From the NCBI GenBank assembly GCA_026692865.1, contig JAPLNI010000050.1, positions 124,001-188,000 on the forward strand: a stretch of 64,000 nucleotides of DNA, given 5' to 3'. A program made the translations under genes and the position numbers. Numbering within the stretch: position 1 is the stretch's first letter; every line of letters begins with the position of its first letter. Source of the stretch: Planctomycetota bacterium. GTDB lineage: Bacteria > Planctomycetota > Planctomycetia > Pirellulales > Pirellulaceae. Below, in pieces: positions 26,637 through 59,979 of this stretch. Below the pieces are notes generated by a model that saw only the letters and a program-made list of their open reading frames with translations, did no database searches and was not told the origin of the DNA.

Positions 26637-26942
26637 CGTCGGTGTCACGAAGGTTTCAACGTCCGATCGTTGCATGCTGGGGCATTCTGTTAGAGTCCAG
26701 GTGCAGGTGTCGCCAACAATGAATGGTTCTCGACACGCTTTTGCTTCCGCGTAGGGGTTGGATCGGTTGCAAGAGCGACAACGCATGAAGAGGCTCAATC
26801 GCGTGGGCAAACTCTACCAATCTTGCCGAAACCACCTAGATTTTCCGAAACACCTGTTCGTCAACCTGAAACGAGTATGTTGAGGTGGTGATCAGACTTC
26901 ACAGCACGCGAAGAATCTTAGCCCATTCGGCATTATTCAACT
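26637..26942. other. Region upstream of the protease gene
   Basis: No coding frame beyond the N-terminal extension of the protease frame was supported. It holds the protease promoter by position and leads into the repeat at 26943. Confidence 0.4.
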
Positions 26943-27024
26943 CGTAGCAGATGTCGTAAGAAATTTAAAGAAAGCAGCAAATTTGAGTAATTAAATCTAA
27001 ACCTGAATTCTTACGAATGCAGCC
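26943..27024. repeat. REP/BIME-like dispersed element, copy B1
   Basis: A left arm at 26944-26966 (GTAGCAGATGTCGTAAGAAA plus TTT) and an inverted right arm at 27004-27024 (TGAATTCTTACGAATGCAGC). TCGTAAGAA on the left and TTCTTACGA on the right are exact reverse complements. The same arms recur at 55630-55713 and 60301-60385. Confidence 0.75.
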
Positions 27025-27077
27025 AAGCCAAACTTGAATTGGGATGTTAGCACAAGAAATTCGCACCGACGCCGCGA

Positions 27078-54224: not shown

Positions 54225-54474
54225 CTGGTTAAGCGTTCGGAACAATGGTCCCAAACGATGTGTTCATCGCTTGAGCTAAGCCGGACGCTCTCTAGCCCTG
54301 GGCTGACGAATAATGTGCTTCAGCCATTCGTTGAACGACCGCTTGATAAAATAATTGACTCGAGTTCCGGCTTTATTCGTGAAGCAAACGCTTGACAGTC
54401 GCTTCTGGAGATATCGAGTACAATCATGGATGTCGGTCTTTACTCGAGCAGTCATTTCTCTAGAAGGAAACCAA

Positions 54475-55365
54475 GTGACGAAGTTTCGTACCGTCGCTGG
54501 CGTGCAAACGAATGTTGAGTTCGCCAATTGCCAAGTTAATTTGAACCGGATGTTGGAGTGGCTTCGCGACGATCAACTCGCTGCCGCAGACCTTGTGGTA
54601 TTTCCCGAGTGCATGCTATCAGGCTATTGCTTTGAAAGCCTCGAGGAAGCAATACCACACTCGCAATCAATTCCTGGAAAAGCAACTCATGAAATTCATG
54701 AACATTGCCGTGCGACGGGCCAGCATGTCGCGTTTGGGATGCTAGAAACTGGCGAAGAAGATAACATTTATAACACATGCGTGCTCATAGGTCCTCAAGG
54801 AATTATTGCGAAGTACCGCAAAATCCATCTACCCGGATTGGGCGTCGACCGTTTTACTACCAGCGGCGGCCAGCCCTTTCAAGTTCACGAAGCGAACGAA
54901 ATGCGAGTTGGCATTCATATTTGCTACGACGGTATTTTTCCGGAATCGAGTCGAGTCATGGCTATGGATGGAGCGGACCTTCTCATCCTTCCGACAAACT
55001 GGCCACCCGGAGCTGATACTTTTGCTAAGTATATTCCTAACGCGCGGGCACTCGAGAACAACGTCTACTTCCTAGCGGTGAATCGTGTCGGAACCGAACG
55101 AGGGTTCCGCTTTATCGGTCAAAGCCGGCTTTGCGACACGAATGGAAATGTTATCTCCGAAGGACCGGCTACGCCTAGCATCAGCCCCGCCATAAACAGT
55201 CCATCCGGATCGCGAGACCACGAGGCGGTCATCATCGGAACAATCGATTTGGAAAGAGCACGCAATAAATGTCTCGTTCGTGTTCCCGGCCAGCACGTTA
55301 TCGATCGATGGGCCGATCGACATCCTGAACATTACACCCGAATCCTAGAACCGCCAACCTCCTAA
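54475..55365 (+). CDS. Carbon-nitrogen hydrolase (nitrilase superfamily amidase)
   Basis: The protein of 296 residues has the complete Glu-Lys-Cys triad: Glu in VVFPECMLSGY, Lys in AKYRKIHLPGLG and Cys in VGIHICYDGIFPESSR. RALENNVYFLAVNRVG and FIGQSRLCDTNGNVI also match the family. Members hydrolyse nitriles, amides or N-carbamoyl compounds; the substrate is open. The GTG at 54475 is chosen because AAGGA lies six to eight bases upstream and the protein then begins like its relatives (TKFRTVAGVQTN); the frame is open to 54355. It lies 250 bases after the YhaN-like gene. Confidence 0.9.
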   Translation: MTKFRTVAGVQTNVEFANCQVNLNRMLEWLRDDQLAAADLVVFPECMLSGYCFESLEEAIPHSQSIPGKATHEIHEHCRATGQHVAFGMLETGEEDNIYNTCVLIGPQGIIAKYRKIHLPGLGVDRFTTSGGQPFQVHEANEMRVGIHICYDGIFPESSRVMAMDGADLLILPTNWPPGADTFAKYIPNARALENNVYFLAVNRVGTERGFRFIGQSRLCDTNGNVISEGPATPSISPAINSPSGSRDHEAVIIGTIDLERARNKCLVRVPGQHVIDRWADRHPEHYTRILEPPTS

Positions 55366-55590: not shown

Positions 55591-55743
55591 ACTAGTGCTT
55601 TGTCCAGATTCAAAACTGGAGTTCGGACTCGTAGCAGATGTCGTAAGACATCTGAAGACCCCAGATTTTGCTATTCTTTCTCGCGACGTCGGAATTCTTA
55701 CGAATTCCGCTACCCAAAAATCTAATCTGGACGGAACACTAGT
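55591..55743. mobile_element. MITE-like element with 20-bp terminal inverted repeats enclosing BIME-like copy B2
   Basis: The ends ACTAGTGCTTTGTCCAGATT (55591-55610) and the reverse complement of 55724-55743 (ACTAGTGTTCCGTCCAGATT) match at 17 of 20 positions. Inside, at 55630-55713, lie the two arms also found at 26943 and 60301. Each arm folds perfectly here: AGATGTC-GTAA-GACATCT (55636-55653) and GGAATTC-TTAC-GAATTCC (55691-55708). GTAGC and GCTAC bound the core. No coding capacity, so any movement would need an enzyme from elsewhere. Confidence 0.75.
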
Positions 55744-56042: not shown

Positions 56043-57344
56043 ATGAAGACGTTTGTCTTGTCATTACTGGCGATTGTATTTCTGGCCTCTTCGGAAACGC
56101 TCTCAGAATCCAAAGAAGACAATCTTCGATGGTACAAAGGGAACTTACACACACATACACTGTGGAGCGATGGAGACGATTTCCCAGAAATGGTGGCGGA
56201 TTGGTACGAATCACACGGCTACAATTTCCTTGCGATTTCTGACCATAACGTTCTCAGCATTGGTGATCGCTGGATGAACATTAAAGACATCGATAAAAGG
56301 AGCGGCGCGAAGGCTTTCCAAAGATACACCGATCGATTTGGTTCTCCATGGGTTGAGACGCGGGGTGATCGAGATGCAGGTACTTTCGAAGTTCGCTTGA
56401 AGCCCCTCGACGCGATCCGTCCGCTCGTTGAACGCAGCGGACAATTCTTGATGATTCCTTCGGAGGAGATCACAGAAAAAGGTGTCCATATCAACGCGAC
56501 CAACATAGGCGAAGCCATTCCCCCCCAAAGCGGCAAAAGCATCGTAGAAACGATTCAAAACACACTTAAAGCCATCGATGAACAGTCGAAAAGATTAGGC
56601 CGCGACATCATTCCGCATCTTAATCATCCCAACCGTGGAGACAAAGGTATCTCAGCCGAGGAGCTCGCCGCTTTAGTTCAAGATGAATTTTTTGAAGTGT
56701 TTAATGGTGTGGAAGGTGATGGGGATCTTGGAAGCGCAAGACGTCATAGCCTAGAAATGCTTTGGGATATCACCAGCACCCTAAGGCTTTCGGAGTTTGG
56801 TGCACCACCTTTGTTCGGTTTAGCGACAGATGATTCGCACAACTATCATGGACAACAGAAAGCGTCACCTGGGCGAGGCTGGATTATGCTTCGAGCCAAA
56901 GAACTCACTACCGAGGCAATCATTGCAGCCATGCGACGAGGTGATTTTTACAGTTCCACAGGTGTCACGCTTCACGACGTTCAATTCGACAAACTCAAGA
57001 AAGTCTACACTATAAATATCGAGCCCAAAGGCGGTGTTGAATACACAACCACATTCATCGGATCCCGGCGCAATTTTGACAAGACTTCACAGCCACGAAT
57101 AGACCCAGAGTCAGGTAAGCCTATCGAAAGAACTCGTGATTACTCAAAAGATGTCGGAATGGCATTTTTTCAAACCAAAGGCAACGTCGCTCAGTATCGA
57201 TTGACCGGCGATGAACTGTATGTTCGAGCAGTCGTTACCAGTTCAGAGAAAACATCCAATCCGACGACAGAAAGCATGCTGCAAAAGGCTTGGACGCAAC
57301 CAGTTGGATGGGATTTAGAATCCAATGATGCGAAACCCAAATAA
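56043..57344 (+). CDS. Exported PHP-domain phosphoesterase-like protein
   Basis: The 433-residue protein has a signal peptide (MKTFVLSLLAIVFLASSETL) and a PHP domain starting WYKGNLHTHTLWSDGD, followed by HGYNFLAISDHNVLS and HLNHPNRGDKG, which supply the His and Asp metal ligands. PHP domains are trinuclear metal phosphoesterases; those with signal peptides are common in planctomycetes and may act on sugar phosphates or polymers outside the cytoplasm. The C-terminal part (from about 320) is a strand-rich domain with no clear family. It is a single-gene unit. Confidence 0.88.
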   Translation: MKTFVLSLLAIVFLASSETLSESKEDNLRWYKGNLHTHTLWSDGDDFPEMVADWYESHGYNFLAISDHNVLSIGDRWMNIKDIDKRSGAKAFQRYTDRFGSPWVETRGDRDAGTFEVRLKPLDAIRPLVERSGQFLMIPSEEITEKGVHINATNIGEAIPPQSGKSIVETIQNTLKAIDEQSKRLGRDIIPHLNHPNRGDKGISAEELAALVQDEFFEVFNGVEGDGDLGSARRHSLEMLWDITSTLRLSEFGAPPLFGLATDDSHNYHGQQKASPGRGWIMLRAKELTTEAIIAAMRRGDFYSSTGVTLHDVQFDKLKKVYTINIEPKGGVEYTTTFIGSRRNFDKTSQPRIDPESGKPIERTRDYSKDVGMAFFQTKGNVAQYRLTGDELYVRAVVTSSEKTSNPTTESMLQKAWTQPVGWDLESNDAKPK

Positions 57345-59629: not shown

Positions 59630-59979
59630 TCGAGTTTAATTTTCCAAGGTAAGTGACCCGAAACAAGAGATCTCGGACTCATGTTTAGTCTAGTTGCAGC
59701 GTCCACTTTGCGACAGTCTTACTTCTGGCCCGAAACCAAAGATTCGTTTTCTATGAATCGATCAAGCGGGTGGGTTGATGAAGCCTAAGCCGATGGCGCT
59801 AGCCACGGGTTTCGATTTTGCCGCATCGCTATTCCATGAGTAAACCTATTTTCGAGGTTTGGCTCAAGAATGATTCGCGTATGGTCCGAATTCAATCAAT
59901 TGGCGAGACCAATCGCTGTGACGTTTAGGTATTCGCAAGTCTCGGAGAGATTTGTTTTCGTGTAGGGAAGCTAGCCAAA
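59630..59979. other. Divergent intergenic region between aroC and the fliN-like gene
   Basis: Holds the A3 repeat at 59777-59825; otherwise no gene or RNA was recognised. Promoters of both genes should lie here. Confidence 0.5.
59777..59825 (+). repeat. Dispersed 49-bp hairpin repeat, copy A3
   Basis: Aligns with 13228-13276. The core CCG-A-TGGC-GCTA-GCCA-CGG forms a 7-bp stem with one bulged A, followed by TTCGATTTTGCC as in the inverted copy at 17011. Confidence 0.78.

Follow-up and report, generated by a model that had tools for sequence, protein, structure and literature searches.

What kind of repeat occupies positions 55591-55743 of this stretch, and is it one element or two? The window (the whole stretch of DNA analyzed, 64,000 nucleotides) lies in contig C50 of the source genome, a 5.55-Mb assembly of 72 contigs referred to below as G000; a congener of the source genome is referred to as G001. 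An initial annotation, made from the letters alone, described a MITE-like element whose terminal inverted repeats (TIRs) enclose a BIME-like pair of hairpins. The segment stands between a carbon-nitrogen hydrolase gene (54355-55365, + strand) and a 433-codon gene without a Pfam match (56043-57344, + strand).

A DNA search of G000 returned 188 candidate places, and all 40 that were scored match. Thirty matches were fetched as loci, set to one strand and aligned, giving a constant unit of about 151 bp that runs from CTAG to CTAG, and a covariance model, R1, was built from the family. All 150 scored R1 candidates in G000 match (of 1555 candidates; at least 150 copies), the weakest with an E value of 9e-9, and 149 of these 150 listed matches span positions 1-151. 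Among 128 copies of at least 80 bits, 95 were readable at both ends; their flanks are near random and conservation begins at CTAG. In the window, the exact unit is 55592-55742 (151 bp, CTAG to CTAG), with the following parts and relatives:

55592-55742, + strand: the composite element (model match of 170.5 bits over positions 1-151; CTAG family borders)
55593-55594 and 55740-55741: the TA dinucleotides of the composite, the part between them being 55595-55739
55592-55624, + strand: left end; its homologue is the left terminus of an IS630-type IS (against the relic end at G000:C57:185943, 31 of 33 bases agree, and 4 of 27 beyond)
55631-55654, + strand: left REP, with a GTAG tag and the hairpin CAGATGTC-GTAA-GACATCTG
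55655-55689, no strand: inter-REP spacer, variable (mean conservation 0.693, columns 64-97)
55690-55713, - strand: right REP, inverted, with a GTAG tag and the hairpin CGGAATTC-GTAA-GAATTCCG
55710-55742, + strand: right end; its homologue is the 3' terminus of an IS630 transposase gene plus the right TIR (against the IS end of L446 in genome G212, 32 of 33 bases agree, and 8 of 30 before)
26910-27056, + strand: degraded family copy (70.3 bits); G001 has one at the same place, with an alignment across to L355
60264-60409, + strand: degraded family copy (71.0 bits); the shorter gap of the congener holds no copy of at least 25 bits

The anatomy given by the initial annotation is borne out in its main points. 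The 20-bp outer ends match inverted at 17 of 20 positions (about 3e-8 for one 20-mer pair at equal base frequencies), both hairpins are present, and their loops, GTAA and TTAC, are reverse complements, because two REPs of one consensus stand head to head. A GTAG tag lies at the base of each hairpin, as in a REP doublet (REPIN/BIME), which supports the BIME-like label. Being short, encoding no protein and occurring in many dispersed copies, the 151-bp element also has the makeup of a MITE.

Folding of the element is stronger than that of shuffled controls, both as DNA for the segment with 20-bp flanks (z -3.5) and as RNA for the 151-bp unit on either strand (z -6.0 and -6.6). The annotation had proposed that the RNA or single-stranded DNA could switch between two hairpins and one long helix or a kissing pair. 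That such a switch regulates the neighboring genes is very improbable. Although both strands fold stably and the hairpins are strongly conserved, the complementarity of the loops is forced by head-to-head REPs, and equal folding of the two strands is found in any palindrome, so that switching or kissing gained no support beyond symmetry. Moreover, copies stand between genes of all orientations, and the window copy has neither a sigma-70-like promoter nor a terminator-like site. An intrinsic terminator considered for the window copy was rejected, since none was found.

It had also been claimed that the inner core recurs alone near 26943 and 60301 and that the outer ends occur only at this locus. 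Degraded family copies do lie at both places, but the one at 26910 retains right-end remnants in the model alignment. Within the 64-kb window, well-preserved ends are indeed confined to 55592-55742, as expected if a REP pair had jumped by chance into an unrelated MITE at this one place. Genome-wide, however, the claim is wrong: a TIR-like 15-mer (up to 2 mismatches) has 78 sites against 15 for a reversed-pattern control, and ends and joints recur together in 149 of the 150 listed matches, in the congener, and in other genera with other hairpins. The 15-mer sites and R1 matches refute chance nesting at one locus, to which we assign a negligible probability. The idea of one repeat inside another thus holds for the composition of the element, but what is copied is a fixed fusion that behaves as one unit. 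A lack of further copies of the ends or core had been named as the outcome that would speak against the annotation; both have many copies. A different dispersed repeat was also seen in the window at 59771-59825, near an aroC-like gene, where about 50 bp match three other places in the congener at 89-92% identity.

How widely is the family spread? In a set of 30 genomes, own included, R1 matched 102 of 102 scored candidates in the own genome and 101 of 102 in the congener; two other genomes had 2 and 1 matches, and 26 had none at E<=0.001. Of 199 genomes of the bacterial family, 23 (own and congener included) have an R1 match at E<=1e-5. Nearest-neighbor identity among 114 copies reaches at most 91%, with a median of 73%, so most copies are old. 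Comparison of the copies marks the family as old and of high copy number, and it now looks largely dormant in the source genome. In another genus, three equal-scoring model matches lie about 349 bp apart at G191:C1:1907509-1908340, as if a longer element-bearing unit were tandemly repeated.

We compared the outer ends with insertion sequences. The left 33 bases agree with the left end of the C57 relic, and the right 33 with the 3' end of an IS630-like gene that stands where a contig begins in G212, a genome of another genus; in both comparisons identity falls away immediately inside the element. The matching stretch of G212 contains the last codons of the transposase (..KSLYPKI, stop), and the right ends of G000's own IS relics are more diverged. 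Relics at C51:109733-110369, C57:185430-185873 and C57:139253 in G000 encode pieces of an IS630-like transposase, and further relics at C56:4152-4769 and C22:184-498 carry parts of the catalytic half. HTH and DDE parts are both represented, with DDE_3 assigned to the C56 piece. Against the NCBIfam IS630 model the C57 relic scores 60 bits, under the cut-off, and the C56 relic 109 bits, over it. Only relics, and no gene covering the whole IS630 model, were found in G000 or G001; we infer the donor enzyme, because a complete IS630 transposase gene of the matching kind was found in neither genome. By sequence comparison, the ends are those of IS630-type ISs, and TIRs shared with an IS of that family are a further MITE property.

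Sequence was read at 66 of the 78 TIR sites, a set enriched for model hits, and at 53 of these both hairpins occur within 6 mismatches. The other 13 comprise four sites in two 131-bp elements with another REP pair, two in a 63-bp palindrome, three IS relics, two composites in which one hairpin is damaged, a single-hairpin element of 86 bp, and one site that is apparently chance. As for the remaining 12 sites, eight lack a hairpin in 60 bases on each side, two fall within model hits, one marks the end of an IS relic and one was unread. The 63-bp palindrome (L040, G000:C55:73721-73783) is near-perfect and has the same ends and no REP; its right half also starts CTACCCC, and it may represent either an ancestor that lacked REPs or the result of a deletion. 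A second end subtype (GTCAACACAA...) did not emerge as a separate IS donor: it has 18 sites against 9 for the control, the best four being copies of the 151-bp element family. A test for coupling of left and right subtypes gave p 0.03 or 0.59, depending on the threshold, and carries no claim here.

We then turned to empty sites and target duplications, which the initial annotation had proposed as a check and which were found. From 113 joined-flank queries of G000, readable empty sites were obtained for three copies: L268, with CTAG (versus L330); L277, with TTAA (versus L343); and L261, with CTAG and CTAT in two related repeats (versus L355 and L384). In each of the three the whole unit is absent and a single TA is present where the insertion stands. 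The filled L277 has TA at both borders, the pattern of insertion at TA with TA duplicated, and in the filled L268 and L261 one of the two TA copies is mutated. A CTAG preference of IS630 is reportedly the subject of one study's title. At the readable sites, comparison shows the unit of about 151 bp to be present or absent as a whole. The inserted unit in these copies is bounded by IS630-type ends, and the doublet itself was not seen to be the unit that moves. Insertion at TA with duplication of the TA is described for ISY100, an IS630 relative, in PMC2170065. The L261 copy (G000:C29:149613-149762) lies inside a copy of another dispersed sequence that is element-free at two G001 places (L355, L384).

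Stretches of G001 were fetched for further comparison. Eight copies could be aligned straight across in both species, and in 16 further cases only the flanks matched: 3 of these have a copy between the flanks in G001 and 13 have no detected copy. Two of the 13, L024 and L294, provide no evidence of absence because the G001 gaps are at least as long as those of G000. The flank matches of the window copy are 507 bp apart in G000 versus 199 bp in G001, with no base-exact site readable. Gaps made the junction matches unreadable for L248 and, when the comparison was reversed, for the G001 copy in L346. With at least 150 copies, sharp CTAG borders, three readable empty sites and IS630-type ends, the annotation's MITE with terminal inverted repeats is supported.

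These observations also bear on an alternative in which a REP doublet (REPIN/BIME) is moved by a Y1 REP transposase and the outer palindrome is only its preferred target site. Such a scheme is suggested by the wording 'target palindromes' that a passage of PMC3733652 uses for Anabaena. It would fit the head-to-head GTAG hairpins without these ends that occur in the source genome, in other Planctomycetota and in Verrucomicrobiota, as well as the existence of the REP-less palindrome at C55:73721-73783. However, the insertion borders lie at the TIRs and the ends are IS630 ends, and among the 66 TIR sites, enriched as they are for model hits, 53 have both hairpins and two a damaged pair, whereas only two lie in the REP-less palindrome. 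On the TIR borders, the empty sites and the IS630 end matches, we rejected the outer palindrome as a mere REP target and consider this explanation improbable.

The REP core itself has a wider distribution than the composite. At least 95 stretches of named genomes contain the pattern GTAGCNGAATTCGTAAGA, 80 of them taken as loci, mainly in Planctomycetota, also in Opitutia and some others. Of the 80 loci, 54 were read by eye: in those outside the element family the hairpin stands mostly in an inverted pair without IS630-type ends; some hairpins are single, and a few in other phyla are chance-like. Head-to-head GTAG-tagged REP hairpins without these ends were thus recognized by eye in both Planctomycetota and Verrucomicrobiota, and one locus from an uncultured Pirellula (L103) is an apparent member of the 151-bp element family. 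The presence of GTAG REPs in Planctomycetes and Verrucomicrobia is already in print. Within G000, hairpin A occurs at 165 sites when up to 3 mismatches are allowed (0 for the control), and 88 of 100 listed sites fall in listed composites. The other 12, by eye, include singles (L434), end-less pairs (L430, L431) and one with an end remnant (L426).

In the proposed check for a REP-associated Y1 transposase, five loci of G000 gave Y1 matches, but none of the five has these hairpins within 6 mismatches, so a Y1 (RAYT) gene flanked by the same REP was not found in this genome. Thirty of the listed Y1 loci of relatives were scanned, and at one of them (L403, G035) a similar hairpin lies some 670 bp away from the gene. 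Two of the Y1 loci of G000, L031 and L032 (in C30 and C19), each have a similar GGAG-tagged hairpin (GGAGTGCTG.GACTTGTC.CAGC), perhaps a second REP type of the source genome. At L388 and L414, Y1 loci of other planctomycete genomes, the same GTAG hairpin stands on both strands, spelled in other letters; in L388 one stands on each side of the Y1 gene. Both loci are ordinary REP-transposase arrangements.

Conservation within the family is concentrated in the hairpins. In 114 copies compared with the consensus (matches below 25 bits were dropped before counting), the hairpins agree at 92% and 91% and the ends and spacer at 60-69%; mean conservation is 0.924 over the left REP (columns 39-63) and 0.908 over the right REP (columns 98-122). 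Forty-five copies picked by their ends gave 92% and 90% for the hairpins and 72% for the spacer, so hairpin conservation is not search bias only. In the 8 secure orthologous copies, 346 of 399 hairpin bases (86.7%) are kept versus 579 of 735 elsewhere in the element (p 0.001), and the 60-bp flanks, which are partly coding, keep 772 of 910 (84.8%). Given that the hairpins are not clearly better kept than the flanks, selection after insertion is weak at best; the difference between hairpin and rest dates mostly from the copying lineages. Of 11 candidate orthologous pairs, three with unmatched ends (L171, L284, L272) had been left out; all 11 pairs give 464/548 for hairpins, 712/1002 for the rest and 965/1219 for flanks.

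Between genera, the letters of the hairpins change while the design is retained. Twenty-one other genomes match, and one layout is common to the six elements inspected from other genera (6 of 6): TIR, GGGTT, 5-7 bases, GTAG hairpin, spacer, inverted hairpin with CTACCC at its end, TIR. The 131-bp elements of G000 resemble L417 and L419 of other genera. In 19 hand-chosen hairpins (two from the window, twelve from the six other-genus elements and five others of G000), the stems pair in 148 of 152 cells, and two positions show three and four standard pair types. The count was made position by position, as MAFFT misplaced the extra bases of 26-nt hairpins. The same design with differently spelled hairpins in relatives suggests that the hairpins do something.

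Could the host be what keeps them, having recruited the copies as bidirectional 3' elements that act as terminators, protect mRNA or bind protein? Sorted by flanking ORFs, which were called by length only, 112 copies comprise 45 codirectional, 37 convergent, 18 divergent, 9 overlapping an ORF of at least 100 codons and 3 that could not be assigned, as compared with 20 codirectional, 4 convergent and 5 divergent gaps in the window. The convergent excess among copies with assigned neighbors (37/100 versus 4/29, p 0.02) and the copies common to both species would fit recruitment. However, the window copy has no intrinsic terminator form, the orthologous hairpins are not clearly better kept than the flanks, and the convergent bias, which depends on genes called by ORF length alone, may reflect only the loss of harmful insertions. 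We regard host recruitment as unlikely, if less so than the target-site explanation.

The joint between the two components offers a possible clue to their origin. The right end starts at CTAC, the complement of the REP tag GTAG, and identity with the G212 IS end begins at this CTAC, inside the Leu-Tyr codons of the transposase. REP transposases act at GTAG. As REP and IS end meet at CTAC, the fusion may be the work of a REP transposase; microhomology would suffice as well.

We consider it highly probable that the element is a non-autonomous MITE of IS630/Tc1-mariner type in which a REP doublet replaces the transposase gene, because of its IS630-type ends, the TA empty sites of the whole unit, the GTAG REP core and the same plan in relatives. 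An IS630 transposase supplied in trans would have moved the element by cut and paste of double-stranded DNA, with TA as the target and usually inside CTAG. A single origin of the composite in the bacterial family is probable, through attachment of a REP doublet to an IS630 end at the CTAC/GTAG tetranucleotide of that end; a REP-type Y1 transposase may have made the join, GTAG being the REP tag. The hairpins would since have been kept as structures while their letters changed, perhaps because the element is helped, or the host shielded, by a protein that recognizes GTAG hairpins. Counted against this MITE reading are the L277 target, TTAA rather than CTAG; the single mutated TA at L268 and at L261; the window copy, whose empty site is not readable to the base; the orthologous hairpins, not clearly better kept than their flanks; the IS630 transposase genes of G000 and G001, found only as relics; and the lack of a Y1 gene beside the hairpins.

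A bolder version of the MITE reading, which we put forward tentatively as the less likely outcome, has two systems at work. IS630 (DDE) ends would move the element as double-stranded DNA, and a Y1/HUH REP transposase would have made the fusion at the GTAG site of the IS and co-evolved with the hairpins, whose letters were rewritten genus by genus in an unchanged IS630 vehicle. The palindrome-enclosed REP dimers of Anabaena would then be a second, independent case.

Comparison with known systems places the composite between two groups. RUP and Nezha are linked to IS630, and the element resembles these IS630-type MITEs in being short and gene-less, with IS630-like TIRs, TA borders, a high copy number and a presumed transposase in trans; its interior, however, is a GTAG REP doublet, whereas theirs consists of IS remnants or unrelated DNA. 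A passage of PMC3733652 names RUP (Streptococcus pneumoniae) and Nezha (cyanobacteria) as MITEs. From its ends and TA target the element is like IS630/Tc1-mariner ISs such as ISY100, as the latter is described in PMC2170065, but its 151 bp encode no protein. With the GTAG REP dimers, REPINs and BIMEs of PMC3733652, which are also the subject of PMC3116915 and PMC2817692, it shares the GTAG tag, the hairpin, the head-to-head units, the high copy number and a phylum from which GTAG REPs have been reported; here, in contrast, IS630-type ends form the borders of what moves, and a REP transposase gene next to it was not found.

A published parallel comes from Anabaena variabilis, where section 7 of PMC3733652 describes GTAG-15 dimers within long palindromes (TATAGGA...TCCTATA), again a REP dimer in a long palindrome with TA-containing ends. 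According to that section no such palindromes were found without REPs; its text, unlike our account of the present element, assigns the palindrome no transposon origin. Within one literature collection, the terms REPIN, MITE and IS630 came together in a single paper, on Pseudomonas syringae, and no description of the 151-bp element was found among the titles and abstracts compared.

REPs and MITEs are treated as separate groups of bacterial repeats, and here one element is both. Its joint can be read exactly, its copies are many, and two species are available for comparison. Two questions become testable with it: by what means REPs spread and change when no REP transposase gene lies next to them, and whether the letters of the hairpins are set by a transposase or by a host protein. 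The element also offers a concrete reading for the palindromes around the REP dimers of Anabaena.
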